Translations under genes and position numbers: made by a program
Source of the DNA: Terrabacter sp. Root181
Lineage (GTDB): Bacteria > Actinomycetota > Actinomycetes > Actinomycetales > Dermatophilaceae
Reading direction: 5' to 3'
Assembly: GCF_001428505.1 (NCBI RefSeq)
Contig: NZ_LMHU01000001.1
Location: 326,273 to 390,272, forward strand
Length of the DNA stretch: 64,000 bases
Notes under the pieces: generated by a model
What the model was told of the DNA's origin: nothing
Databases searched by the model: none
What the model saw: only the letters and a program-made list of their open reading frames with translations
Part shown: positions 1-13,805 of the stretch, in pieces
Position numbering within the stretch: position 1 is the stretch's first letter
Layout of the letters: every line of letters begins with the position of its first letter

Positions 1-535
1 TCTGCTGTGTGTCCGAGGTCGCCGGAGAGGGCCAGTTCGAGTATTCGATTCGATCGGCTAGGGCCGCAAGCAGCGCTGATGGAGCCGCCTTCTCGTCAAG
101 TTTGGTGGTCGCTTCGTGGAGCGCCGCGCGCAATTCTGGAACCTCGTCCCCTTCCATCTTGTCAAGGATGAGTTCGATGACCTTGCGGAGGTTGGTGCCA
201 TACTTGGGCACATAGATAACCCGCCTACGTTCGTTCCCATCGCCGATCTTCGCCCCCATCCAGCGAACCAGGTGCGACTTACCCGCGCCCGACTCCCCCC
301 GGATGGGGAGGAGCATCATCGACTCATTCTCGCGAAGGAACTCCTGCAGAAGTTCTTGCTCAGTGACGTATTTTGAGTCTCCCGAACCGGTAAACGAGGT
401 CCGGATGATCCTCATGGGTTGGTGCGTTGCAAGGAACACAGCATCGGAAGGTGACACCGCGTCCACAAAGACCGTCTTCTCGACCTCACTGGGGTTCCAG
501 CACAGGTACTGGCTAAACGACTCACTGACAGTCAT
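1..535 (-). CDS. dpdH: DpdH, ATPase of the Dpd restriction arm (partial)
   Basis: Reading the minus strand from an ATG at 535 gives an open frame of 178 residues that runs off the left edge of the window. A Walker A motif, GESGAGKS, lies near residue 77, so this is the N-terminus of a P-loop ATPase. The start overlaps the dpdG stop as ATGA (535-532), so the two are translationally coupled. DpdH is the ATPase encoded with dpdF and dpdG in 7-deazapurine DNA-modification islands and is assigned to restriction. The assignment rests on order F-G-H plus the P-loop; the C-terminus cannot be seen. Confidence 0.72.
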   Translation of the reverse strand, partial: MTVSESFSQYLCWNPSEVEKTVFVDAVSPSDAVFLATHQPMRIIRTSFTGSGDSKYVTEQELLQEFLRENESMMLLPIRGESGAGKSHLVRWMGAKIGDGNERRRVIYVPKYGTNLRKVIELILDKMEGDEVPELRAALHEATTKLDEKAAPSALLAALADRIEYSNWPSPATSDTQQ

Positions 536-1512
536 GCGAGCACCACCCTTGAAACGACTTTGCCATGTCCAATTGGGTTCGCGAGGGCCATAACGTCCGG
601 GGAGTCCGCTCTTGGTTCAAGGCTGAGCGTTCCTTCGTCGGAGAGGCGTTGCAGGGCGTGTGACAGGGCTGGGGAAAGTCGTTCCCTCGACACTGGGTTC
701 ATACCCTGGGCCATCCTCTGTGTGACCACTTCTTGCAGACGGCCGCCGTCCAACACAGGCAACTCGTTGGTCAGCTGCTTGACGAAGTTGCGGACACTCA
801 ATGTCGCTGGCCTTGCCATCGAGTGCACGACGTCCCGAATGGCTACGGTCGGATCCGGCACGAGCATCTCTTCTCGGCCACCCGTGGTATCCGTTGTCGC
901 CAGGCCCAGAAACACTGCCCATCGCTGAAACGCATTCCAGCGGATCCCGGTGTTGAACAACGCGACCTTCTTGCCGTCTGCTGCTTTGCCCATCGTGCCA
1001 ACATCGGGAAACTGGCGCGCTTGCTCGTGGAAAGCGCTTCTTGTTGGGTCTTCGGCGCTGAAGCGTCCGGGCGGGGCCCACACGTCCTGGACGAGAAACC
1101 ACGAGACCGCGCGTGTGAAGTCACGCATGTCCCGGTCCGACGCCCAAAGGTCCAACTTCTCACCGCCGTTTTGGCGGTCCGAAAGGATCTGTGACCGCAG
1201 ATGGCCCCTCAGCACAGCGACGTCCTCGTCGGTCTGGCTTGCCCTGGGAAGTGCCCGGTCTAGCGTCAATCGGGACTCATTGTCAACGAGGATGGTGCCC
1301 AACGCCCTCATTAGTGACACCGTCTCGTCAACCGCTCGTGTGCCCGCCGTTTCCTCTTCAGAGGCCTCACTGGAAGTGGGTGGCGAGATGGCGGTCGGCG
1401 CGACTGCACGCGCGAGGTCCGATTCCGTGACTGCATCAGTCGCGTACGACAAGTACCGATACACAACTAGAGCAACGCTCGGGAGCGCATTCGGACGATT
1501 TATGAGAGTCAC
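532..1512 (-). CDS. dpdG: DpdG, Dpd restriction-associated protein
   Basis: This 326-residue protein begins at a GTG (1512-1510) whose first base is the last base of the dpdF stop codon (TAGTG); its own stop overlaps the dpdH start. The start is chosen because the sequence MTLINRPNALPS opens a helical segment typical of DpdG, and the longer frame upstream is only antisense to dpdF. No catalytic motif is visible. DpdG is a family known only from the dpd locus and its biochemical role is unknown; position between the helicase DpdF and the ATPase DpdH suggests a subunit of the restriction complex. Confidence 0.75.
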   Translation of the reverse strand: MTLINRPNALPSVALVVYRYLSYATDAVTESDLARAVAPTAISPPTSSEASEEETAGTRAVDETVSLMRALGTILVDNESRLTLDRALPRASQTDEDVAVLRGHLRSQILSDRQNGGEKLDLWASDRDMRDFTRAVSWFLVQDVWAPPGRFSAEDPTRSAFHEQARQFPDVGTMGKAADGKKVALFNTGIRWNAFQRWAVFLGLATTDTTGGREEMLVPDPTVAIRDVVHSMARPATLSVRNFVKQLTNELPVLDGGRLQEVVTQRMAQGMNPVSRERLSPALSHALQRLSDEGTLSLEPRADSPDVMALANPIGHGKVVSRVVLA

Positions 1513-4190
1513 TAGTGGCCCCTGACTAGAGTGGAAAGCGAAATTTGAGGAAAGCGTCGAACCACGGCTAATTGAGACGGCGCGTCGGGGTCTTCCACAT
1601 CCTTGGGCAGGATGAATACGGTCGGTCTCCGTAGTCGCGCATTCCACAGCCATGACGGCAACTCATTCACGTCATCCAAAGGCCCGAGGAAGGCCGCCGT
1701 CGCCACCGGAGGGAGGTCATCGCGCACACAATTTCGGTAGTCGTGGAGGAAGACGAACCGTTCTGGCACGTGGACATGGGCACGCTGGAATTGGCCCATC
1801 CCGAGCAGTCGGCCGGATGCGATTAGGGTGCGCACACCGTGCCTCATGAGAGTCGGGATGAGTGTCTCGAGGAGGTCGACCCAGTCCTGCAGTTGCGCGG
1901 GTGATCTCGGCCGGTCGTAAAAGGTGAATAGTCGACCCTCGTTTCCTGCCCGCTCTGAGAGCCACTCCGCGACGGGGCCGACGAAGGGAATAGTTGGGGG
2001 AGTCGGGGTACCCGATGTCCAAGACCCTGGGTGGCCACAGTAGTCACATACCCCGCACGCCTTAACCGGGAAATGACCCTCGCCGTGCCGCGCAGGCATT
2101 GGCGGTAGCGTGTAAGTGTCGAGGAGCAGGTCACACACTTTCGACTGCCCGGTGAGAGCCTCTAGCATGCCAGTCAAGTTGATCCGGTCCCTGCGACGCG
2201 TCTCGGTCGCCACCTGGGCGACGGCCTTCCCCCATTCGTCGGCCGTGATCGACCCATGTCTTAGCCGGATTACGGCGGTCCCCAGGTACTCGCTCCAGGC
2301 GTCTTCGCGCTTCGTCTCCCATTCAGATTCGCTCTCTCCGGCACGGCGGTTTGGCGGGGTGTCGGCATCGAACTCGATGAGTCCGGCGCGCACCATCAGG
2401 GCCATCGTCCGTTCGTTCCACTCAACATTTCGATCGGAGGAGGCGAAGAGGCCAGGCCTGCCGCTCCGCGTTTCAGTTCTAAGGGCGTCGAGTCGTACTC
2501 GTGCGCGTCCGTCGGGTGCAGATCCACCCGCCGACGCCCAAAGAGCCTCCCAGCGGGGATAGCCGACTTCTTCCGAGATTAGGGTTGTGCTGGCAAGACT
2601 ACTAGCCACTGCCCGATCGCCTGGTTCATACAGTGTCAGAGAGACTGAGGGATTGCCGTCGCGGCCCCCGCGACCCACCTCTTGATAGAAGCGATCTACG
2701 GTCTCCGGGATGCACGCGTGGATAACCGTCCGGACGTCACTTTGGTCGATTCCTAGCCCGAAGGCGGACGTGCCAACAACGATGTCGTACTCGGTCCGTT
2801 TTACGCCCCGTCTGGTGTATGAACCCTGAAAGCGCTGCAGGACGTCCTGTCGGACCTCGCCCTGGGTATCTCCGGTCAGGAGCCCCACGCGCGCATACCC
2901 CTCGTCACGCAGTCGTTCAACCCAATAGGCGGCATCCGATTTGCGGGCGGTGTAAATGATCATAGGGCGCGGCAGGTGAGCGACAGCCTCTGCTAGTCGC
3001 ACTGCGCGCTGAGTGGAATCGACACAGGCGGAGGCCCAGTAATCTGGCTCACGACGCAGTGTTGACGAAGAAATGATTTCGAAGGGACCTGGCTCGTCAA
3101 ACAACTGGCCGAGGAGTTCTACAGAAGACCTGCCAAGAGTGCCCGAAAGTAGCACTGTTTTGAAGAGCGCGTACCCGTTGGCGGCGGCCTCTCGAAGCAG
3201 GTGCCTCCTGAGCCCGCTCAGCTGTTGGAAGGCAGGTCGGAAGTCGCTACCCCACTGCTCGACAAGGTGCGCCTCATCGATTACGAACAGGCGCAATCGT
3301 CCCGTTTGTGCCGCCACTGTCAGGGCATGTGATAAGCCTGCAATGGCCGACTCAGGGTTGAGTAACACCAGTGTCTGCGAGCCGTCCAGGATTCCTCGCC
3401 GGATACGCTCCCGATCTGCATCAGATTTTCCGCCGACGTAAGCGAGCGCGCGTTGGTAGGTCGGCTCGTCCAGCGCCTGCAACCGCGCTTCTTGGTCTAG
3501 GGCAAGGCTCACGGTAGGGACGACGAAGAGTGTCAGGCCGCCATGCCTGGCCTCAAGGGTCGCGGGGATGGTTGCGACCGCGGACTTGCCCTCACCTGTG
3601 GGCAGGTTGATTAGCGTTGTCGAACCGGGCGGCGCAAGGAGAACCGCGCGGAGCGCTTGCCGCTGCCCGGCCGACGTATATCTCTGGTACTGGCCGAGGC
3701 TTGCCGCCTCCAGATAGGGGTCGCCTGGCATTGTGAGATCGGGACGGCGCCGATGCCTCATGTCGCCTGCTGCGAACGCTTCCTTGCCGATCGGAAGTCC
3801 TCCGGAGTGCGCAAGCCAGTCCGGCATCCATGGCCCCGCGGAGACCTCTAGTCTGCCAGGACCGGCGTCGACCGCGTGACACCCGACGACACCCCAGTGG
3901 TGGTGAGTCGGCCATCTTGGTCCGCTCGGGACGACCAAGGTGAAGGGCGCATTATGTCTCGCCTCTTGCGCAAGGAGTGCATGCCTGACGAGGGTGGCCA
4001 CGTCGAGCGGGCCCACCAGTGCAAGGTCAGCCAGGCCATCACTACCCTCGACTGCGTCCAAGAGTCGCCGGTGGGGTCCGAACGCGAACGTCATGCGTGG
4101 GAGGGGCGAGGGCCAGTCTCGAAGCCATGTGCGCAGAACGAGGAACTCCGAAGAGGGATCAGTGCGCTGCCCCGCGTTGGTCTCGTCCAT
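1512..4190 (-). CDS. dpdF: DpdF, RecQ-like superfamily 2 helicase of the Dpd system
   Basis: A 892-residue superfamily 2 helicase. Visible motifs are Walker A (PTGEGKS, about residues 197-203), the DEAH box (305-308), the SGT motif III (349-351), a motif V region (GTSAFGLGID, about 473-482) and the arginine-finger motif QEVGRGGRDG (503-512), all RecQ-like. A CxxCxxC cluster (CGVCDYC) near residue 750 may bind zinc. The start at 4190 follows a clear GGGAGG ribosome site; further upstream codons lack one. It is the first gene of a tightly overlapping dpdF-dpdG-dpdH operon. DpdF is known from dpd islands as a restriction-arm helicase, presumed to act on DNA lacking the 7-deazapurine mark. Confidence 0.85.
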   Translation of the reverse strand: MDETNAGQRTDPSSEFLVLRTWLRDWPSPLPRMTFAFGPHRRLLDAVEGSDGLADLALVGPLDVATLVRHALLAQEARHNAPFTLVVPSGPRWPTHHHWGVVGCHAVDAGPGRLEVSAGPWMPDWLAHSGGLPIGKEAFAAGDMRHRRRPDLTMPGDPYLEAASLGQYQRYTSAGQRQALRAVLLAPPGSTTLINLPTGEGKSAVATIPATLEARHGGLTLFVVPTVSLALDQEARLQALDEPTYQRALAYVGGKSDADRERIRRGILDGSQTLVLLNPESAIAGLSHALTVAAQTGRLRLFVIDEAHLVEQWGSDFRPAFQQLSGLRRHLLREAAANGYALFKTVLLSGTLGRSSVELLGQLFDEPGPFEIISSSTLRREPDYWASACVDSTQRAVRLAEAVAHLPRPMIIYTARKSDAAYWVERLRDEGYARVGLLTGDTQGEVRQDVLQRFQGSYTRRGVKRTEYDIVVGTSAFGLGIDQSDVRTVIHACIPETVDRFYQEVGRGGRDGNPSVSLTLYEPGDRAVASSLASTTLISEEVGYPRWEALWASAGGSAPDGRARVRLDALRTETRSGRPGLFASSDRNVEWNERTMALMVRAGLIEFDADTPPNRRAGESESEWETKREDAWSEYLGTAVIRLRHGSITADEWGKAVAQVATETRRRDRINLTGMLEALTGQSKVCDLLLDTYTLPPMPARHGEGHFPVKACGVCDYCGHPGSWTSGTPTPPTIPFVGPVAEWLSERAGNEGRLFTFYDRPRSPAQLQDWVDLLETLIPTLMRHGVRTLIASGRLLGMGQFQRAHVHVPERFVFLHDYRNCVRDDLPPVATAAFLGPLDDVNELPSWLWNARLRRPTVFILPKDVEDPDAPSQLAVVRRFPQISLSTLVRGH

Positions 4191-4576
4191 TGCGTTTCCT
4201 CCCCTTTCGACTCGGTAGCGAATGTACCGAATCCGGCGCCAGGTACACACGGTGGTGTCAGCTACAACTCCAAACGCTCCGGTCACGGCCATCTGGCGGC
4301 CGGTGGCGGACATGCGTTCCGCGCTTTGCGGGCATAGGAACTGCACGACGCGACGTAGTCTCCTTGTCGACGGTCCAAGATTTACGCCCCTTCCTGGGGT
4401 TCGATGAGCGGTGCAGAAGCGCGCCAGCACAAACCAACCACGGGAGCCACGCACTTCGTCCACCGTGAGCGCGTGCACCACATGACTCCCAAACCCGTCG
4501 ATTTCGACCCGTCCCAGAGCGGACCGCATCATGCCCGAGGAACGCTCCGCCGAGTGTTGAAGATGCTCACTCGGTG
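4191..4576. other. dpdF upstream region, possible promoter
   Basis: No gene is supported in these 386 bases. On the minus strand a TACATT hexamer (4226-4221) sits inside a GGTA...TACC inverted repeat about 30 bases before the dpdF start and could be a -10 box; the matching -35 is weak (TGTGTA, about 4249-4244). The rest is open in several frames but looks like decayed sequence next to the IS remnant. Confidence 0.35.
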
Positions 4577-5670
4577 TTATCCGGCACAAGCCCATGTCCT
4601 CACTCGCGCCACTGCGGAGACAAGGCTCTCGCATTTGAGCGGGGCGGGCGCTGGTTTCGGTTGAGGCCCTCCGCGCGGGCGTTGGTCACGTTCTCGCTGA
4701 GCGCGACGACCACCACCGACCAACCACGTGTCGATGGTGGTGGCCTGGCGCGTGGTCGCCTCGGCGTGGGCCCTGGCAGCGGCGTCTTGGAAGCCGTACA
4801 GCCAACCCCGGATCCGGTGCGGGTCAGACTCGGACAGCGGCATGCGGAGGCGTTCCTTGACGGCGTGCGCGGCGTCCCATCTCGTTGGTCGGGTCCTCCG
4901 TGGCAGGCCGCGGTGAACCGGGCCCGTTGCTTGGGTGAGAGGTGCTCGTACCCGCTGAGAAGCCAGCCGCCGCGAGGGCCCAAACCTGGTCGGCGGCGAC
5001 CCCCCGTGCCATGCAACTGCCAACTGATCCCCTGTCGGATGTGGGTGACCGACAGGTTCTCGAGGGCGACGAGATGCCACTTGTCGACCGCGATCCGCGC
5101 GTCCGTTAGCGCGGAGCGGATCTCGCCGGCGTGGGGCGCGGCATAGGGCGATCACGCCCAACTCGACACCCCGCGGAACGCCGGCATGTGCAGCCCTAGC
5201 CACTCGATGACGCACGCCCGGAACGACCTGGGGTCGGCCCGAGAGACCCCCGCCGAGCTGCGTCAGCGGTCACGAAGCTTGTCATTCACGGCTCCGACCG
5301 CTTCCACCCGGCTTCGTCGACACTCAGCGCACCGACCTGGCCCTCGTTTCACCGATTCCTAGGACCCCGGATCGGTTCCGGTGCCGGTAGCCACCGGGCC
5401 GCGAGGGCGATCAGCGCCTTGCGCAGTCGACCACCCAACCTGGTACCCCCAGCGACCTCCCTGACCGCACGCTGGTCCGACGCGACTGTCAAGCGAGCCG
5501 ACCCGTCTCCCGCTCCGGGTCGTGATCCGCGATCGTGCGGGCGCGGCGGTGGATTGCTGCATGAACGTGCCTGTCGCATGAACTATTTCGCGGCACGTGA
5601 GGCGTCGCTTGAGGCACCACAACTCTATGCGCTGGCCCGAGACGGGCATACCCTTGAACTGCACTAGGGG
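4577..5670 (-). pseudogene. ISL3-family transposase remnant
   Basis: The minus strand carries pieces of one ISL3-type transposase scattered over different frames. The N-terminal part (about 5664-5350) has the CREI...GTFMQQST and AVREVAGG segments. The middle (about 5100-4820) has VDKWHLVALENLSVTHIRQG and GYEHLSPKQRARF. The C-terminal part (about 4720-4640) has NVTNARAEGLNR. Together they span roughly the 1.1-1.3 kb of an intact gene, but at least three frame changes separate them, so it is dead. It lies between the two dpd arms. No terminal inverted repeats were found. Confidence 0.75.
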
Positions 5671-5799
5671 ACCCCCTTGATCCTCGAGGCGGGCATCCCG
5701 CAGTTCGGGGCCCTCCGGTCGATCAACTCGATAACCACATGCACCATGTCCGGGTCAACTCGGTCGAACTCAGGACGCGGAACTCGTCCTCCATCCCGA

Positions 5800-6002
5800 G
5801 CAGCACTGACGTACCCTCATTCATGCTCATGGCCGGGTGGCTGCGTGCTTCCATCTTTAACTCCGATCACGGAGTCTGGTACACCTGCAAGGACTTCGCC
5901 GCAGTCTGCACCCCGTTCGAGGTCACCCTGACCCTCGGCAGCGTCGACTCGGGGGATAACGGCAGACGCGAGACGCTGGCCCGAGAAACCGCCTTCCGGT
6001 AG
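5800..6002 (+). pseudogene. IS3-family transposase (OrfB-like) fragment
   Basis: A short plus-strand frame contains FNSDHGVWYTCKDFAAVC, which matches the integrase-core signature of IS3-type OrfB (consensus SDHGSQYTS.....C), followed by degraded sequence resembling the usual GxxxDNALAES region. Only about 60 residues are recognisable and no full DDE core remains. It is a second, independent piece of IS debris beside the ISL3 remnant. Bases 6003-6127 hold nothing recognisable. Confidence 0.6.
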
Positions 6003-6127
6003 TGGTCGGACGGCGCGCGCCCGGGAGTGTGCTCCTGCTTAAGGATGAGTTTGTCGGTCTCTCGAGCGACCGATTTGCCAGTGCCGAACCGATTGTCCGC
6101 CGAAGCAGACTCAGTCCGGGGAGACGG

Positions 6128-7234
6128 CTAGCGGAGCGCGCGCAAGAGGTGTCCAGTGAGCAGTCTTATGTCGCTGGGGGTGTTCTGGAGGCCGTTCCAG
6201 CGCCGGATGTCGTCGTCAGCAAATGCCCAGGTTCCCTCCGTCCAAGCGCAGCAGGGAAGAAGTTGCGCCAGTTGGCTCTTGAGATCCAGGTCATCAAGTT
6301 CGTCGACGTTGAAGCCTTCCGTCAGGGCGTCCATGACGTAGCCGAGGGACTGAACCCCAACGCCGTGCGTAAGACGGGACTTGCGGGGTTCGAGTTGCCA
6401 CGGCTCGTAGAAAGTAGTCTGAACCGCGTCCCAAAAAGCGACGAGATGCGCAACCATGTTGTCCACGTTCGCAGATCCGTCTGCAGGGTCTCGGTATTGA
6501 TAGAGCGCGCCATCGGACAGGCTGTTTTCAATCATCCTAAGAACGCTATTGTCCTTAATGTACCCATCTGGCTGTGTCGGCGTAGCAATTCGACCCGCGA
6601 AGGGCTGGCCCTTCAAGTTGCGCGGACCGGCGTTGAGTCGTGTCATGATCTGCGCCGGCAATTGTTTCCTGGCATAGGCCGGGGGTAGATGCCCCGTGGT
6701 GTCAGGCAGCAGTTCGTGAATTAGGCCCTTGGGTAAGGGTTTTGTGTTGTTCACAAGGATGAACTGCGAACGCTGCTCTTCCTCGCCATCAGCGATGAAT
6801 CCGACCGCTGCGACCGCGAACTCCGCAAGATCCGCGTCGCGAATCGCGGCACTACGCTGTTGGCCATCGACAACCCAAGCGGGCCTCGCCTCTTCCGGGA
6901 TTGATTCGTCGATCGGGATCACGAGCTCCCCGATCGACGAGTAGTCGACCGCAGATTTTTCGCTGAACGCCTCAAACTTCACGCGGTCGTCAAAGGCAAA
7001 GACGACCGCGTTGGGAAGGAGCGGACCATCGGACTCGAGGTACCGGCGAATGGCCCGAATGTGCGTGAGCACCTCCGGCCGCTGGTATCCCTTTAGGTTC
7101 GCATCGTCTCGGTGGACCCGCGAGACCGTGGCGAAATCGTGGATGCGCTTACCATCAACTGCGAATGAATAGATGTACTTCTGTCCCTGCCTAATCCTCA
7201 AAGCAGGAAGGCGCAGTTCGTAACGGTCAGCCAT
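6128..7234 (-). CDS. dpdB: DpdB-type DGQHR-domain protein (copy 1)
   Basis: A 368-residue DGQHR-domain protein; the motif here is VVDGQQRSAAI (DGQQR at 123-127). DGQHR proteins are ParB/DndB-like. In dpd islands DpdB works with DpdA to put preQ0 into DNA, and is needed for the ATP-dependent base exchange. The chosen ATG (7234) overlaps the dpdA stop by 8 bases; upstream codons run antisense-like through dpdA. It is the last gene of the modification arm. A paralogue of similar length lies on the other side of dpdA, so which copy is the functional DpdB, or whether both are needed, cannot be told from sequence. Confidence 0.82.
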   Translation of the reverse strand: MADRYELRLPALRIRQGQKYIYSFAVDGKRIHDFATVSRVHRDDANLKGYQRPEVLTHIRAIRRYLESDGPLLPNAVVFAFDDRVKFEAFSEKSAVDYSSIGELVIPIDESIPEEARPAWVVDGQQRSAAIRDADLAEFAVAAVGFIADGEEEQRSQFILVNNTKPLPKGLIHELLPDTTGHLPPAYARKQLPAQIMTRLNAGPRNLKGQPFAGRIATPTQPDGYIKDNSVLRMIENSLSDGALYQYRDPADGSANVDNMVAHLVAFWDAVQTTFYEPWQLEPRKSRLTHGVGVQSLGYVMDALTEGFNVDELDDLDLKSQLAQLLPCCAWTEGTWAFADDDIRRWNGLQNTPSDIRLLTGHLLRALR

Positions 7235-8465
7235 GTGAGTCCTCGGTTGGATGGGGAAGTGAGAGGTTCTGAATCTTATGTGCGAGCACTGACAGGTTGT
7301 GGAATCCGCGACGCTTGTTGCGCTCGGTGCCTCGGAAGATGGCCACCTCGATGCCGAGTTCGCGACAGATCGAGCATGAGCATTTTGCCCAGGGCGCGGC
7401 GCGCAGGGTCCTTTCGTACTGGGAGAGGTAGCTCTTCTTGCTCTGGCAAATCGTCTCGTACCTGGCGAGCGCCGCCAGAACCTCACGCATACTGGACTCG
7501 GTTCCGTCATACGCGCGTAGTGCCCGCAAGCATTCGCGCTCACCGCTCACGGCATCTCGTTGGGACACTCTGCCAGCCAAGACGGCTCTGCGAAGGGTTG
7601 GATTGCCGTCAACCTGCGGGACGCGCAAAGCCACATACGCTTCGTCACGGGTGTGAAAGTTAAGCCGGTCGTCCATGAAGGCCTGCCGGAACGCCGAGGT
7701 GCTATCGAAACTCGTCACCCCAAATTCAGCGAAGCGCCCCATCGACTCGACCCGCGTGATGCCGAGGAGATGAAATTCCGTCTCGGGTGCGCGCACTCCG
7801 TCGATCGCCTCAAGACATTCTACGATCTGCCGAGTCTTGAGGGGCACCATGCCGCCGAGGGCAATGCGGCGATATCCGAAGTCCTGGAGTTGCTTTACGC
7901 TGTCCGCGTAGCTCGTCGGACTCCAGCCTTGGGCGGCGCCGACGGGTTCCAAATCGGTACCCCGATCGGCGACCCGCGTGATGAACTCTTCGGCGAGTCG
8001 GAGAGTCAGCAGTCGTCGTTGGGCCCAAGCAGGATCGACCGTGTTGAAGTCCGCCTCGGGTGCATAGCCGAAGATGATGTGGTCAACGCTCACCCCGGCG
8101 TCGAAGCCGCACCCTTCATAGAAGTCGAGCGTCTCATCTACGGTGACGGGAGGAACGAGTTCGTCAGCGTAATTGAACGCGCCGTTGTCGCCGAGTGTCA
8201 CGAGTTCGGGCGTCAGTCGGAAGAACTCACGAACGCCCAAGCGATACAGGCGTGCTCGCTGAGCTCCTGTGTACTTGCCAGCGCCCCTGATCGAGCCATC
8301 GACGATGGACTTGCTCACCAGAAGTCCGTGGTAGGGATGCTCGTCCAGCACCTCGTGGGCATAACGGTCATCGCGCTGCCTCACCCGTAGTGGGGAGTAT
8401 TCGTCACGTTGGAAGTCATACGTGGGGCTGACGAGGTCCTGGCTGTCGGGAAAGTAGAACCTCAT
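7227..8465 (-). CDS. dpdA: DpdA, tRNA-guanine transglycosylase-like DNA base-exchange enzyme
   Basis: A 412-residue member of the queuine tRNA-ribosyltransferase fold. The C-terminal zinc motif is intact: CSCSIC (C362, C364, C367) with H389 as the likely fourth ligand. Candidate catalytic aspartates are D93 (LGDNGAFNY) and D254 (TSFDSTS), by analogy with bacterial TGTs. DpdA replaces guanine in DNA by preQ0. The start ATG overlaps the stop of the upstream DGQHR gene (ATGA, 8465-8462). It is flanked on both sides by DGQHR genes and sits divergent from a preQ0 biosynthesis operon, which fixes its role as DNA rather than tRNA modification. Confidence 0.9.
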   Translation of the reverse strand: MRFYFPDSQDLVSPTYDFQRDEYSPLRVRQRDDRYAHEVLDEHPYHGLLVSKSIVDGSIRGAGKYTGAQRARLYRLGVREFFRLTPELVTLGDNGAFNYADELVPPVTVDETLDFYEGCGFDAGVSVDHIIFGYAPEADFNTVDPAWAQRRLLTLRLAEEFITRVADRGTDLEPVGAAQGWSPTSYADSVKQLQDFGYRRIALGGMVPLKTRQIVECLEAIDGVRAPETEFHLLGITRVESMGRFAEFGVTSFDSTSAFRQAFMDDRLNFHTRDEAYVALRVPQVDGNPTLRRAVLAGRVSQRDAVSGERECLRALRAYDGTESSMREVLAALARYETICQSKKSYLSQYERTLRAAPWAKCSCSICRELGIEVAIFRGTERNKRRGFHNLSVLAHKIQNLSLPHPTEDSHG

Positions 8466-9595
8466 TTTCTACTCATCCGCGCTGACAAATAGATGCGTAC
8501 GAGGTAGTTCGAAAGTGCGCTGATGTGTCTTGGCGTGTTCTGCAAGTCGTTCCATGTGAGCCCTAAGTCCTCCCACGTGCCGTCCGTCCAGCGGCATCTG
8601 TCCGCGATAAGGGCCAGTTCGGCGGAAGCTTGCTCGCGGGCATCGACGGCGTTCGCGTCTACATGTGCCATCACGCGGTCCATGAGTCGGCCCATCGCCC
8701 TGATGCCCACCCCGCCCATGAGGCGCGACTCTGTGGGAGGCAATCCCCACGCTCCCGGGAAGGTTTGACGCACGGCGCCCCAATAGGCAAGGAGTGCACG
8801 GCGGATGCCCTCGGTATCTGTCGTTCCGGTGGCGATGTTTCGGTATGGGAACAGCAGGCTCGACGGCGACTCGATCGACTCGCGCAAGGCTTCGACAAGG
8901 CCCGTGTCAGTCACCACCGCCACATGCTTGTTGTCCGTGGACGTCGAGGCGCGCCGGACAATGCCGTAGAAGGGAGAGTCAGGATCTTGGTTCAGCATGT
9001 CGACGAGAGCGGAGGGGAGTTGCCTGGTCGCCATCCGGGCTGACGGGACGCGTGCGATTTCAGGCAGCAGTTCTGTGACCAGACCCACTGGTAGGGGTTG
9101 CACGGTATTGACTCGCAGAAATTGCTCTCTTTGAACGTCCAGATCTTGCGTCACAAAGCCGGCAACGGGCACCGGCATGCGACGATTCTTGGTCCGTGAA
9201 AGCGCGAGGCTGCGCTGTTGCCCATCCACGATCCAGGCCGGGCGTGGGCCTTCGCCCTCCGGAGAAGTCGGAATCTCTAACGTGCCAGAGACGGCCAGGC
9301 CATCACTGGTGCCTGGGCCACGGCTGGACTTGAAACGTGTCTCAGGCGGTAGCGCCAGGATGAGCCCATTCGGGAACAGCACGTCGCCGGAGTCGAGGTA
9401 GTCCAGGATCTGCTTGACGTGCTTTTGCTTCTCGGGTCTCTGGTAGCCAATTAATTTGCCTGCCTCGTCGCGACCAATCCGAGAGACATCGGCCACCAGG
9501 TCGATCTCTTCAGCCGCGAGTGTGAAGAGGAATAATGGGACCTCAGTGTTCTGCAGCACTTTCAACGCGCGTCTCTCGATCCAACCCTCGGTCAT
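8462..9595 (-). CDS. dpdB: DpdB-type DGQHR-domain protein (copy 2)
   Basis: A 377-residue DGQHR protein with the motif WIVDGQQRSLAL (DGQQR at 124-128). It aligns by eye with the 368-residue copy downstream of dpdA over its whole length: GYQRPE near residue 50, the DGQQR core, a PLP-G-(L/V)-ELLP segment, RKQLPA/TRQLPS, and a DxWND/RRWNG LQNTP(R/S) ending. The two differ at most other positions, so they are old paralogues rather than a recent duplication. Its ends overlap the DpdC candidate and dpdA by four bases each, so all four genes form one operon. It may form a heteromer with copy 1. Confidence 0.8.
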   Translation of the reverse strand: MTEGWIERRALKVLQNTEVPLFLFTLAAEEIDLVADVSRIGRDEAGKLIGYQRPEKQKHVKQILDYLDSGDVLFPNGLILALPPETRFKSSRGPGTSDGLAVSGTLEIPTSPEGEGPRPAWIVDGQQRSLALSRTKNRRMPVPVAGFVTQDLDVQREQFLRVNTVQPLPVGLVTELLPEIARVPSARMATRQLPSALVDMLNQDPDSPFYGIVRRASTSTDNKHVAVVTDTGLVEALRESIESPSSLLFPYRNIATGTTDTEGIRRALLAYWGAVRQTFPGAWGLPPTESRLMGGVGIRAMGRLMDRVMAHVDANAVDAREQASAELALIADRCRWTDGTWEDLGLTWNDLQNTPRHISALSNYLVRIYLSARMSRK

Positions 9596-10464
9596 GAGAC
9601 CTCCTCCGTCTGCTGAAAGAGAGTTCCGAATCGGCGTTGTTCACATGCAAGATTGGAGTCGCGCAACTGGCGCAAGGCCCGAGACTTCGTGATGCCGGGG
9701 TCCATTTCACGAAAAGCACGGATTAGGTCCAAGATGGTTTCATCGGCAATCCGATCCCGGTTATACGACTCAGGGCGTGCCGCCTTCGTGCACCAGTCAT
9801 GCCACCGTTTAAGCGCCTCCGCGGAGAAGGCCCCGCAGGCGCCTGAAAGCTCCAGCCATTGCACAGCCATCCGCAAATTCAGACTATTCGCTGTGCCCCC
9901 AAGGGTCCGGCGGAGCTGCCGATTGGATGGGACGCGTCGATCGGATGGAACATCCACTGAGCCACCGAACACTAACAGTGGATCGCCGTTTGTTCGGGCA
10001 AGCATGTCGTCAGCGATCACCTTTGAGTAGTCCTTTGACAGCACCCACAACATGGGCCCGCTCAACGTTGAGGGCGAGTCGGCGCTGATTGCTTGCCACC
10101 ACCCTTGCGCCTGTTCGACGGTCAACGCGACGGAGTCATCGTGGCCTGTGGAAAACGTCGCTGCGTAGGCAGGCGCCCTGTGGTCGAGTGGGCGAAGGCC
10201 CAAGCCAGCGGAAGCAACTAGAACAACCGGGTCGTAGCCCGCCGCGCGGGCGGCACCCTCGAGACGAAGCACCTGAGACCAGGCCTCGCCCTGGTATAGC
10301 GCGCGGAGCGTCCTCCGGTCAGTCGCCCGACCTAGACTCTCGTCCCAGGCCGATGCGCGGGACTCGACCGTGCCGGGGCTGAGGTTTCGAATCCTGAGGT
10401 CGTCGGACACCGGGAGCGACTTGCGGTCAGTACACGTGACGACGATCGTCATCTGGTTGGTCAC
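9592..10464 (-). CDS. DpdC candidate, YaaA/DUF6884-like protein
   Basis: A 290-residue protein at the head of the modification arm. The N-terminus (TIVVTCTDRK, residues 6-15) and the later segment LVASAGLGLRPLD followed by an APAYAATF stretch (about 85-105) match the pattern of YaaA/DUF6884-type proteins, which have an early VxCxxxK and a later LSAxxGL...PY. As I recall the family, DpdC (DUF328/YaaA-like) turns preQ0 in DNA into 7-amido-7-deazaguanine. Location and fold suggest this is that enzyme, but similarity is weak by eye. An alternative start is the ATG five codons in. Confidence 0.55.
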   Translation of the reverse strand: MTNQMTIVVTCTDRKSLPVSDDLRIRNLSPGTVESRASAWDESLGRATDRRTLRALYQGEAWSQVLRLEGAARAAGYDPVVLVASAGLGLRPLDHRAPAYAATFSTGHDDSVALTVEQAQGWWQAISADSPSTLSGPMLWVLSKDYSKVIADDMLARTNGDPLLVFGGSVDVPSDRRVPSNRQLRRTLGGTANSLNLRMAVQWLELSGACGAFSAEALKRWHDWCTKAARPESYNRDRIADETILDLIRAFREMDPGITKSRALRQLRDSNLACEQRRFGTLFQQTEEVS

Positions 10465-10497
10465 GTCTCGGCCCCTGACTTGAAAACTGTCGGTGTG

Positions 10498-10532
10498 TTG
10501 ACGCTACTGTAGACCACAGTAAATCGTAGAGT
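10498..10532. promoter_or_regulatory. Divergent dpd / que promoter with inverted repeat
   Basis: The 111-base gap between the modification arm and queC holds a perfect inverted repeat, TACTGT-agacc-ACAGTA (10505-10521). On the plus strand a consensus-like -35 TTGACG (10498-10503) lies just before it and TAGAGT (10527-10532) just after. On the minus strand the repeat itself supplies a TACAGT -10 box. The repeat is therefore placed to control both directions at once and is a likely operator. Confidence 0.45.
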
Positions 10533-10575
10533 CAGATCGTACGCCCGGTGTTGGTTATGAAGGTTGGTGGATGAG

Positions 10576-11262
10576 ATGAAGGCCGTAGTTCTCCTCAGTG
10601 GCGGGCTCGACTCAACGACTGTGTTGGCCTACGCGAAGAGTCAGGGCTATGAGCCGTACGCGCTCAGCTTTCGCTACGGCCAGCGGCACGCTGTCGAGCT
10701 CGAGGCTGCCCGTCGCGTGGCCGCGGCGCAAGGGGTCGAGGGCCACACCATCTGCGACATAGACCTCACGGCATTCGGCGGATCGGCTCTGACTGCCGAC
10801 ATCGATGTTCCGAAGCACGACACCGCAGAGGAAGTGGCCGAAGACATCCCGGTCACATACGTGCCTGCCCGAAACACCATCTTTCTCTCGTTCGCCTTGG
10901 CGTACGCCGAGGTGGTCGGGGCGGCAGACATCTTCATCGGCGTGAACGCTCTCGACTACTCGGGCTACCCCGACTGTCGTCCGGAGTACATCAAGGCCTT
11001 CGAACACATGGCCAACCTCGCGACGCGTGCCGGGGTTGAGGGCTCGACGTTGAAGATTCACACGCCTCTGATGGACAAGACCAAGGCGCAGATCGTTGAA
11101 ATGGGCTTGGCCCTGGGCGTTGATTACGGCCTTACGAGTTCCTGCTACGACCCTGATGAGGCCGGTCGGTCCTGCGGGCATTGCGATTCCTGCTTGTTGC
11201 GTCTCAGAGGCTTCGCGGAAGCGGGATCAATGGACCCGATCAGCTATCAAGAGTCGGCATGA
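10576..11262 (+). CDS. queC: QueC, 7-cyano-7-deazaguanine (preQ0) synthase
   Basis: QueC converts 7-carboxy-7-deazaguanine plus ammonia and ATP to preQ0. The PP-loop SGGLDST lies at residues 8-14 and the zinc cysteines at 190, 200, 203 and 206 (CYDPD...CGHCDSC). Length, 228 residues, is normal. The ATG at 10576 gives the standard [10 protein letters not shown] start; GTG and TTG codons just upstream are in frame but would add residues absent from the family. It is the first gene of queC-queE-queD-folE2, overlapping queE by ATGA, and divergent from the dpd modification genes that use its product. Confidence 0.95.
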
Positions 11263-11894
11263 CGTACAAAATCAAGGAGATCTTCTACACCCTCCAGGGC
11301 GAAGGCGCCCACGCGGGCAGGCCAGCCGTGTTCTGCAGATTCAGCCTCTGCAACCTGTGGACGGGGCGGGAAGAGGATCGGGCCCGAGCGATCTGTCAGT
11401 TCTGCGACACGGACTTCGTTGGAACTGACGGGGAAGGCGGTGGCCGATTTAAGAGCGCTGATGATCTGGCCGACGCAGTCGAGGCTGCATGGCCGTCAGG
11501 GTGGACCAAGGACCGAATGGTTGTCTGCACGGGCGGCGAGCCTTTGCTGCAGTTGGACGAGGCGGCCGTCGTGGCACTTAAGGCCCGCGGTTTCTACGTG
11601 GCTGTCGAAACCAACGGCACACGGGTGCCGCCACCCGGCATCGATTGGTTGTGTGTCAGCCCAAAGATTGGGGCGGACCTGGTCGTCAGCGGCGGGCAGG
11701 AACTCAAGTTCGTGTACCCGCAGCTGAACGCCGACCCTTTGCAGTTCGAATCGCTGGCCTTCGAGAGTTACCGGGTCCAGCCGATGGACGGTCCCGATCT
11801 AGACGCCAACGTGAGTGCAGCGGTCAAATTCTGCCTCGACCACCCCAACTGGAACCTCAGCCTTCAAACGCACAAGTACTTAGGAATCCCGTGA
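11259..11894 (+). CDS. queE: QueE, 7-carboxy-7-deazaguanine synthase
   Basis: A 211-residue radical SAM enzyme that rearranges 6-carboxy-tetrahydropterin to 7-carboxy-7-deazaguanine. The cluster-binding cysteines are C31, C46 and C49, i.e. CX14CX2C instead of the canonical CX3CX2C; this long spacing is known in some QueE proteins. TLQGEG (11-16) and GGEP are the usual QueE signatures. The start overlaps the queC stop (ATGA at 11259-11262) and the stop overlaps the queD GTG, so translation is coupled through the operon. Confidence 0.94.
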
Positions 11895-12262
11895 GCCACA
11901 CCGCCGAGATCTATCGCGAGTTCACCTTCGAGTCTGCGCACCGTCTACCGAACGTTCCACAGGACCACAAGTGTGCGCGTCTGCATGGGCATTCGTATCG
12001 TGTTCAGGTGCACGTCACGGGGAACGTCGGCGCCCAGACCGGGTGGGTGCAGGACTTTGGCGACATCAAGGCCGCCTTCAAGCCGCTCGAGGATCAGTTG
12101 GACCACCACTATCTCAACGAGATTGGCGGCCTAGAGAACCCGACGAGCGAAGTGCTCGCTCGCTGGATCTGGGACCGACTGATCGATCACGTTGACGGTC
12201 TCAGCGCGGTACAGGTTCGAGAGACCTGTACGTCCGGTTGCATCTACCGGGGGGAGCGATGA
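11891..12262 (+). CDS. queD: QueD, 6-carboxy-5,6,7,8-tetrahydropterin synthase
   Basis: A 123-residue PTPS/QueD-family enzyme that makes 6-carboxy-tetrahydropterin from dihydroneopterin triphosphate. Zinc histidines are H17 (FESAHRL), H32 and H34 (LHGHSY), and the catalytic cysteine is C28 (KCARLHGH). The GTG start overlaps the queE stop (GTGA, 11891-11894) and the stop overlaps the folE2 ATG. The C-terminal ETCTSGCIY segment is typical of QueD, and the preQ0 operon context excludes a tetrahydrobiopterin role. Confidence 0.93.
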
Positions 12263-13044
12263 TCCTGCCTGATATTCAGGATCAAGTGGATACCCGCGGC
12301 ATCACGCTCGATGAAGTCGGTATCGACGGCGTGAGGATGCCAAGCACGTTTTCCGACGGGGAGACGGTTCAACCCGGCGTCGCTTCGTTCGAGGTCCTCG
12401 TCCAACTGCCGTCGGACCGGCGAGGCACGCACATGAGCCGCATGGTCGAGTTGGTGCACGAGCACTTACAGGTCATCGATCCTCGCGATCTCGCGACGGT
12501 CCTGAAGCAGGCAGCCGCCCGTTTGGAGGTTTCAGCCGCCTCCATCAGCGTTGTTCTCCCCTTCGCAACTCAGGTGACGTCGCCGGCGTCGGGTCGCAAG
12601 TCCTGGCAGGCCAGTGATCTGAGTCTGCGGGCCAAGCTGCGAGGGGACGCCTTTGAACTGGTGACTACCGTCTCGAGCGAGGTCACCAGCTTGTGCCCAT
12701 GCAGCAAGGCAATCAGTGACTACGGCGCTCATAATCAGCGCAGCGTGGTCTCCGTTGATGTGCATGGTCGAGACGACAGCCCGTATCCAGTCCCAGTTGC
12801 AGCCCTGGTGGAGCTAATTCGCAGCACGGGGTCGTGCCCCGTCTACCCGATCGTGAAGCGCCCCGATGAGCGTTCGATAACGATGACTGCGTTCGACCAT
12901 CCGGCGTTCGTGGAGGACATGGCGCGAGATCTCTCTGGCCGCTTGAGGAGCCAGGATGTCGCGCACAAGGTGCGCATTCGCAACCTGGAGAGCATCCATA
13001 GTCACGACGCCGTCACAACCGTCTCGTGGTGCCCTGGCACATGA
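12259..13044 (+). CDS. folE2: FolE2, GTP cyclohydrolase IB
   Basis: A 261-residue GTP cyclohydrolase of the FolE2 (type IB) family that converts GTP to dihydroneopterin triphosphate, the first step to preQ0. The GTHMSR segment (56-61), E141 and the CPCSK motif with C146/C148 are the family signatures; the conserved HNQRS follows at 159. The ATG overlaps the queD stop. With queD, queE and queC the four genes give a complete GTP-to-preQ0 route. A dedicated FolE2 in the island suggests precursor supply does not rely on the host folate enzyme. Confidence 0.93.
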
Positions 13045-13154
13045 GGCGATTCCTCTTGCCTTCGCACCGCCGAAGTTGGGCAGTTGCGCCGCTAGGCTTC
13101 GGGCCGTCTGCCAGCGCATTCTGTCATCGGACCTGAAGCCATTGACGCGTTCGC

Positions 13155-13709
13155 TCAGTCGCAGTTGGGGCAGGGGCCGGAGACGGGCATCTCCATGAAG
13201 CAGGTCGGGCAGACTGCGCCGCGGCGAGCCTCCGTGGCCGCCGTCGCACGCGGTGTGCTCGCCCGAACGACCCGCGCCTTGGCCGTCAGCGTCGGCACCG
13301 CGTCGGCGGGCACGTCGGCTCCCCAATGGCGGTAGCACTCGAGTCGCGCCGCGGCCGCGCTGTTCTCGCGCTCGAGCGGATCCGTGATGGGGGCTTCGCC
13401 AGCAACACGCAGCGCCTCGTCGTAGCCGGCGCCGACCTGCCCGTCGTCCTTGCGGACGACCAGTGACGCGAGCGGCGGCTCGTTGCGTACGTGGTTGACC
13501 TTGACCAGATCGGCGAGCAGAGGCCCGATCCAGTTGCGCATCTGCGACTTGGTCCGCAGCGCCGAGCGGCGCTGGACCTCCTCGGCGAGCTCGGAGTAGG
13601 TGATGACGGCGTTGTAGCGGCCGGCGGTCTCCACGAGCACCTCGTACGCGTGCTTCGCCCAGTAGGGCTGGGCGAACTTCGCAGTCACGAACGTCTCGTG
13701 GTCAGACAT
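13155..13709 (-). CDS. Hypothetical protein with C-terminal zinc ribbon
   Basis: A 184-residue protein of unknown function. The N-terminal half (AKFAQPYWAKHAYEVLVE, then a helical YSELAEEV segment) could be a winged-helix fold, and the C-terminus has CPTCFMEMP...CPNCD, a two-CxxC zinc ribbon. The ATG at 13709 is the first with family-like sequence; a longer frame upstream is not convincing. Base composition is that of the backbone, so it marks the first host gene to the right of the island. It is convergent with folE2 across a 110-base gap with no clear terminator. Confidence 0.65.
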   Translation of the reverse strand: MSDHETFVTAKFAQPYWAKHAYEVLVETAGRYNAVITYSELAEEVQRRSALRTKSQMRNWIGPLLADLVKVNHVRNEPPLASLVVRKDDGQVGAGYDEALRVAGEAPITDPLERENSAAAARLECYRHWGADVPADAVPTLTAKARVVRASTPRATAATEARRGAVCPTCFMEMPVSGPCPNCD

Positions 13710-13805
13710 GGTGAGCCATTCGATTCCTTCGTGGTTCTCTCGATGAGATACCAGTCTCCACCCATCGCCTCGGCGGCCCTCACCCACCCACCGATGAGTC
13801 AATCC

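Follow-up and report, generated by a model that had tools for sequence, protein, structure and literature searches.

Do the marking genes and the restriction genes of a Dpd island, the kind of locus that places 7-deazapurines in DNA, share a single history, or can one set be replaced underneath the other? The question is raised by a locus of the actinobacterium Terrabacter sp. Root181, of which a stretch of 64,000 nucleotides (the window) was analysed, corresponding to positions 326273-390272 of contig NZ_LMHU01000001.1 (C1) in a genome of 4.94 Mb, 12 contigs and a stated completeness of 100%. The window opens inside a Dpd island whose borders, set by comparison with congeners, lie at C1:~312747-339425, the right end being window position ~13153. 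This island is an ordinary member of the known Dpd system, with a modification cassette and a restriction arm. It is also very probably a chimera located in a defence hotspot, in which a foreign arm, dpdF-G-H-I-J-K-D, would have replaced as one block an arm of the type found in Terrabacter sp. Ter38, on a cassette shared with Terrabacter relatives. The features on which this reading depends are the following (window positions, unless preceded by C1).

C1:314167-315396, between dpdD and the left flank: ISL3-family transposase frame (PF01610), inverted ends ggctcatcacaa/ttgtgatgagcc (read by eye)
C1:315769-317976, minus strand: dpdD, 437 bits, above the NCBIfam cut-off
C1:317979-318605, minus strand: dpdK, 182 bits, above the NCBIfam cut-off
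C1:318515-323038, minus strand: dpdJ, 1610 bits, above the NCBIfam cut-off
C1:323035-323763, minus strand: dpdI, in the place expected for it between dpdH and dpdJ; 37.6 bits, below the model cut-off of 150
1-535, minus strand: 5' part of dpdH (whole gene C1:323760-326807, 1015 residues), AAA ATPase with Walker A GESGAGKS; NF041065, 740 bits (cut-off 450)
532-1512, minus strand: dpdG; NF041064, 155.8 bits (cut-off 80), from residue 50 of the longest frame; GTG at 1512 taken as start in line with the model match, ATG at 1653 being an alternative
1512-4190, minus strand: dpdF, RecQ-like DEAH helicase; NF041063, 778 bits (cut-off 550), from residue 169 of the longest frame; ATG at 4190 picked as start, longer frame to 4634 possible
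4981-5109, minus strand: ISL3-like transposase remnant; tblastn 35% over 43 residues (E = 0.002) to the ISL3 transposase at C1:314167-315396
5948-6103, minus strand: dpdE relic of 52 residues, aligning with residues 81-132 of the Ter38 DpdE frame
6128-7234, minus strand: dpdB2, DGQHR/ParB-like, downstream paralogue by tree; NF041060, 504.6 bits (cut-off 300)
7227-8465, minus strand: dpdA, DNA-guanine transglycosylase; NF041059, 593 bits (cut-off 200)
8462-9595, minus strand: dpdB1, DGQHR/ParB-like, upstream paralogue by tree; NF041060, 389 bits (cut-off 300); DGQQR invariant
9592-10464, minus strand: dpdC; PADLOC DpdC, 325.8 bits over residues 3-287; no NCBIfam or Pfam match
6128-13128, no strand: the modification cassette as one conserved block; aligned over 7008 columns with the same locus of Ter38, at 93.5% nucleotide identity

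A first-pass annotation, made from the letters of the window, had already read its left end as a Dpd island poorer in GC than its flank and littered with insertion sequence (IS) debris. Both points hold, the GC content being 0.605 in the cassette and 0.608 in the arm against 0.70-0.72 in the flanks (0.67 in the debris), and the debris containing the ISL3-like remnant. The genes that it named are all present and pass curated cut-offs, apart from DpdC, which is detected by PADLOC alone and has no curated cut-off, and the piece of DpdH truncated at base 1. Beyond base 1, where further dpd genes were expected, dpdI, dpdJ, dpdK and dpdD were found and dpdH was completed. The expectation failed for dpdE, of which a search to the left and across the genome found no gene, only the 52-residue relic inside the window.

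The join between cassette and arm

Ter38, the closest named relative among the matches listed (DpdA 97% identical), and T. aerolatus both carry Dpd islands at the same locus as Root181, and the two flanks of the Root181 and Ter38 islands are syntenic. The 7.0 kb cassette block shared by the latter two starts with the final base of the dpdB2 stop codon; on the other side of the arm, homology resumes in the left flank at C1:312746. DpdA, DpdB1 and DpdB2 are 96-97% identical to their Ter38 counterparts, against 27-39% for the six arm proteins that can be aligned (D, F, G, H, J and K), and dpdI of Root181 has no match in the Ter38 arm. Between Ter38 and T. aerolatus, on the other hand, the arms are 73-90% identical by protein and the A and B proteins 77-82% (dpdC 46%), which indicates that an undisturbed arm does not inherently evolve faster than A and B.

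The join itself retains traces of an earlier state. The dpdE relic is 65% identical to DpdE of Ter38, which itself scores 1139 bits, 60% to that of T. aerolatus and 58% to that of Nocardioides caeni; the only other significant matches among 29 DpdE rows (Ter38 counted twice) are four Streptomyces proteins at 40-50%, which are also the next closest to the Ter38 DpdE. The arm now adjoining the relic is far from the Ter38 class and from all others seen, its best match per gene being 26-43%. ISL3-family material is present at both ends of this arm, and the debris around the remnant extends over roughly 4650-5900 (by eye); its longest frame gave no match in family profile scans. A Ter38-type dpdE relic next to a non-Ter38 arm suggests that the lineage once possessed and then lost a Ter38-type arm, and that the present arm is a different one. 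Since the edge of homology falls at the dpdB2 stop codon, with the relic and the IS debris in the same place, the replacement can be read from the sequence.

The defence hotspot that holds the island has its edges at C1:~312746-312795 and 339426. Six of nine genomes of the genus matched in a search with the right flank: Root181 itself; two more, at the positions of T. aerolatus and Ter38; and G767, G751 and G771, which carry other genes and no Dpd island at the same site. Nine of the 31 larger frames at these three sites were scanned, two of them without a match; the remainder include a type I methyltransferase, a type IV enzyme and a DrmD-like helicase in G767, a DruF/DruL-like protein in G751, and TmtA-like and DrmA proteins in G771. 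Just beyond the right edge, positions 13155-13802 of the window hold a 215-residue frame that has no family match and ends in a zinc-ribbon-like CPTC...CPNC region; its DNA is conserved, wholly or in part, in the three Dpd-free genomes, which marks it as a border gene of the hotspot and not a gene of the island.

Probable arm exchange among related islands

A collection of species genomes yielded 294 DpdA relatives, from which the best 80 loci by likeness to Root181 DpdA were taken; all are Actinomycetota by title, towards which the sample is therefore biased. The exchange statistics rest on 80 cassettes, namely 78 of those loci, one further genome and Root181. DpdA, DpdB1 and DpdB2 together are at least 95% identical in 33 cassette pairs, and the arms could be compared in 30 of these: mean arm identity is at least 90% in 17 pairs and at most 62% in 13, with none between. 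The other three comprise two pairs with arms in opposite orientation and one with an arm gene out of reach. The 30 pairs are not independent and probably represent about eight separate events, as judged by eye on the tree.

A faster evolution of the arm genes, with no exchange at all, would also leave arms less alike than cassettes, and distant islands do generally have more diverged arms: where cassettes are 60-70% identical, 814 of 1000 pairs have a mean arm identity below 45%. Nevertheless, we regard this explanation as highly improbable. It leaves unexplained the empty interval between 62 and 90% arm identity, the relic of one arm type beside another in Root181, and at least eight changes of arm orientation on the cassette tree (FastTree; orientation known for 67 loci). 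It also fails for the reverse case, in which dpdF, dpdG and dpdH of N. caeni and two Terrabacter strains are 87-94% identical on cassettes that are only 74-75% identical (74% for N. caeni and Ter38).

Among mismatched pairs with cassettes at least 85% identical, 103 of 109 lose nucleotide homology no further than 200 bases from the dpdB2 stop, and the remaining six at most 892 bases from it; of 25 arm-matched pairs, only 16 have a single BLAST piece that extends beyond dpdB2 by more than 1 kb. Correlations among the identities of dpdJ, dpdK and dpdD are 0.84-0.92, and those with the cassette 0.26-0.30 (1378 pairs from 53 loci, a pair having the gene in both loci but no BLAST match being set to 25%), which implies that the arm genes move together. 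Whole arms were compared in five pairs, and in three of them (Nocardioides L061/L062, Agromyces L057/L065 and Root181/Ter38) both flanks match, the distal one being homologous and collinear as well, so that the arm was replaced in place. The sole distal match of Streptomyces L087/L089 is inverted, and L111/L117 has none. When arms are grouped into classes at 66, 75 and 85% identity, changes on the cassette tree exceed the number of classes minus one by only 6, 3 and 3, a small excess explained by most classes being singletons.

Transport by insertion sequences was considered as a general vehicle and set aside. At the Nocardioides joins, the ends of dpdB2 and dpdD are separated by 3 bases in L061 and by 228 in L062, and beyond dpdE the flanks become homologous again after 191 and 728 bases. 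These distances leave little room for an intact IS, and homologous recombination in cassette and flank would be a simpler route. Likeness of dpdC likewise failed as a predictor of arm likeness (partial rank correlation 0.08 over 86 pairs, cassette identity allowed for), and thus reveals no coupling.

The direction of the exchange could also be the opposite, the cassette being the mobile part, copied in near-identical form into islands that already held different arms. Two pairs speak for such a movement: Streptomyces L087/L089, with 99.6% identical cassettes, arm proteins at 33-50% and distal flanks that are not collinear, and Agromyces L057/L065, whose dpdB1-dpdA segment is far more alike than the flank at fourfold degenerate sites. 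Against it, Nocardioides L061/L062 shows fourfold identities of 73-79% for dpdA and dpdB2, inside the 50-88% of the flank frames, with the arm near saturation at 29-36%; the flank genes in these comparisons are mechanically called frames, some of which are perhaps not genes. The relic in Root181, moreover, shows that an arm was lost there. A mobile cassette is accordingly an unlikely general explanation.

Several observations nevertheless weigh against arm replacement in its simplest form, or against a fully working Root181 island. Cassettes recombine too, as Agromyces L057/L065 shows: dpdB1 and dpdA have a fourfold identity of 97-98%, dpdB2 one of 74% and the single flank frame compared one of 67%. 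Purifying selection also contributes to the conservation of cassettes. For Root181 and Ter38 the corresponding values are 82-95% in the cassette (67% in folE2) against 52-96% in the flanks, ranges that overlap too much to settle which part moved in this pair. The dpdI match falls short of its model cut-off, and an arm without dpdE may not restrict. The models of the DpdB proteins (mean pLDDT, the predicted local distance difference test score, 78.5 for DpdB1 and 80.7 for DpdB2) give only weak structure matches, the best to ParB having Z scores of 6.5 for DpdB1 and 6.2 for DpdB2 (the latter tied with sulfiredoxin), under the level of a clear match.

Taking the replacement of arms as the preferred reading, the arm would behave as a plug-in, tolerating cassettes of other lineages and thus the mark set by any cassette to which it is joined. 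We lean towards the view that arms with about 30-50% residue identity are interchangeable on the same near-invariant dpdC-B1-A-B2 and that marked DNA is still spared. If so, the arm would read a mark common to actinobacterial Dpd islands instead of a partner-specific signal, and phage pressure would diversify the arm but leave the mark unchanged.

Marking, the two DpdB proteins and the missing dpdE

The right half of the cassette consists of the genes for preQ0 supply.

10576-11262, plus strand: queC; TIGR00364, 220 bits (cut-off 150); SGGLDS and C-x9-C-x2-C-x2-C present
11259-11894, plus strand: queE, Cx14CxxC type; TIGR04508, 336.9 bits (cut-off 240)
11891-12262, plus strand: queD, GTG start at 11891; PF01242, 128.5 bits (cut-off 22.4), at C1:338178-338528
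12259-13044, plus strand: folE2; PF02649, 240.5 bits; second FolE2 model, 229 bits (cut-off 215)

With all four detected, the preQ0 pathway that the first-pass annotation had assigned to the island is borne out. By family knowledge, QueC, QueE, QueD and FolE2 would make preQ0 from GTP; DpdA, together with DpdB1 and DpdB2 of the same overlapping operon, would exchange guanine in host DNA for preQ0, DpdB presumably using ATP, and DpdC would hydrolyse preQ0 in DNA to 7-amido-7-deazaguanine (ADG). Overlaps of 4, 4 and 8 bases join dpdC, dpdB1, dpdA and dpdB2 on the minus strand, and overlaps of 4 bases each of the three queC/queE/queD/folE2 junctions on the plus strand (with the starts chosen), which suggests coupled translation in both marking operons.

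It is scarcely credible that the que genes work for tRNA queuosine or for a secondary metabolite and stand beside the dpd genes by accident. In favour of this alternative, a second gene of the PTPS/QueD family lies outside the window, at C1:885502-885879; the only QueC and the only FolE2 match of the genome are both in the island. No tRNA-guanine transglycosylase (TGT) was found in the Root181 genome, in contrast to 14 of 14 control genomes, and no QueF, which 8 of the 14 have, so that the preQ0 of the island has no visible use in tRNA and its delivery to DNA becomes the more plausible. Across the 80 related loci, queC, queE and queD occur together in 78, dpdC in 78 and folE2 in 70.

The TGT fold and zinc motif previously attributed to DpdA withstand closer inspection. 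Residues 1-402 of its 412 align with PDB entry 7ui4, a solved DNA-guanine transglycosylase, and Asp93, Asp254, Cys362, Cys364, Cys367 and His389 are invariant in 85 of 85 sequences. From TGT enzymes we take the two aspartates to be catalytic and CxCxxC...H to be the zinc site. Residue 94 varies: Root181 has GDNGAF, with Asn in 15 of the 85 sequences and Cys (GDCGAF) in 70.

Some loci depart from the common plan. The dpdC of T. aerolatus (L053) is 45-46% identical to those of Root181 and Ter38, although the neighbouring queC and dpdB1 are at 77-79%; dpdC either evolves faster or is swapped separately. In Actinomadura sp. J1-007 (L118:8211-11212) dpdA comes immediately after queC-queE-queD, and no dpdB, dpdC or arm gene was detected over 10 kb around it. 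In Actinokineospora inagensis (L102), which has dpdC-dpdA, dpdB1 went undetected, the dpdB2 match covers just 110 codons, and queC and folE2 are the only que genes; this island looks as if it were decaying. Viral contigs were also searched for DpdA relatives, and six stretches fitted the pattern, none of which was confirmed.

A dpdB1-like copy before dpdA and a dpdB2-like copy after it were found in 78 of 80 actinobacterial loci (trimmed coordinates). In a tree of 63 DpdB proteins, which takes in two alphaproteobacterial loci and one Enterobacter plasmid, one branch with an SH-aLRT (Shimodaira-Hasegawa-like approximate likelihood-ratio test) support of 100 parts the upstream from the downstream copies; the Enterobacter and Methylobacterium rows are flagged by the program as long-branched. 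DpdB1 and DpdB2 are old paralogues with fixed positions. GYQRP, DGQQR and ELLP are kept in at least 97% of 80 sequences for each paralogue, so that neither looks dead, and DpdA may well form a complex with both. A search of PDB sequences with the DpdB2 profile gave nothing better than E = 0.16.

The arm is expected to attack DNA without the mark and to spare marked DNA. It is possible, although we do not favour it, that the Root181 island now only marks DNA, its arm having ceased to work through the loss of dpdE. In a profile search of the genome for dpdE, six helicases matched weakly and all fell short of the cut-off, a background also present in 14 of 14 controls, whereas dpdE is present in all 24 of the other actinobacterial arms that could be examined (16 of 16 codirectional and 8 of 8 whole convergent ones); the IS debris at the join points the same way. 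In the alphaproteobacterial arm of Methylobacterium (L046) dpdE was not seen either. The remaining genes speak against such a loss of function: dpdF, dpdG, dpdH, dpdJ, dpdK and dpdD are full length and above model cut-offs, none being broken, with Walker A motifs in dpdH and dpdJ, DEAH in dpdF and DEVH in dpdJ. The simple Walker A pattern found no match in dpdF, and dpdK, like most of the 56 DpdKs compared, has HxK but not the complete HxKx4D. Restriction by the Root181 island without dpdE is therefore uncertain. Of the earlier interpretation, the Dpd identity and the preQ0 supply stand, and a restriction arm acting on unmarked DNA has become less sure, the arm being transplanted and without dpdE.

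Relation to known systems

The titles and beginnings of abstracts of the open-licence literature yielded no report of Dpd arm exchange or of two DpdB clades, although a prior report is possible; within that literature, the plug-in behaviour of the arm, the scar marking the swap in Root181 and the positional DpdB paralogues are new. The GATOR-GC study counted 801 extra dpdB copies and does not analyse them in the section giving that count (PMC11888242), and a passage of a 2025 review describes restriction tied to the ADG mark as not explored further (PMC12707154). Natural swaps on near-identical cassettes are ready-made experiments on mark reading by Dpd restriction. Streptomyces L087/L089, for example, poses directly the question whether the arm responds to any lack of the mark or recognises one particular partner.

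The Dpd system, dpdA-K, is known from Salmonella Montevideo and Kineococcus radiotolerans, as set out in part of PMC11888242. Like Root181, the system outlined there has dpdA, dpdB, dpdC, preQ0 genes and a restriction operon with helicases, an ATPase and a phospholipase D (PLD)-like protein (PMC11888242). Root181 differs in having two DpdBs around dpdA, no dpdE and an arm on the cassette of another lineage. Islands short of some arm genes are still counted as Dpd in one section of that work (PMC11888242), so that the lack of dpdE does not expel Root181 from the family.

On the Enterobacter cloacae plasmid pPOL9A (NZ_CP086409), with a DpdA 47% identical to that of Root181, a dpdC-like gene (annotated as hypothetical, 25% to DpdC), dpdA and dpdB are followed by a convergent arm in the order D-K-J-(I-like)-H-G-F-E, and no que genes are annotated in the stretch seen, unlike in Root181. 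Its one DpdB, where Root181 has two, is of the downstream type (45% to DpdB2, 33% to DpdB1). The existence of two old DpdBs thus suggests that a single-DpdB system such as this one misses a component kept by 78 of 80 actinobacterial islands, and its mechanism may not describe them.

BRIGADE of haloarchaea resembles Dpd in combining 7-deazaguanine genes with YprA-like helicases and differs in being archaeal and in its ARMADA-like helicases, as far as one part of the source describes it (PMC12458937). Distant DpdA-like matches, most in two or three pieces, occur on haloarchaeal plasmids (H18-H25; L051:5403-7603), that of L051 adjoining DUF6884 and PLD-like proteins; our guess is that these plasmids carry BRIGADE.

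The Dnd phosphorothioate system (DndABCDE with or without DndFGH) comes close to Dpd in that, according to a section of PMC10853773, its marking module is commonly decoupled from restriction and it includes a ParB-like DndB. It differs in its mark, and the arms exchanged between Dpd islands are homologous versions of one operon.

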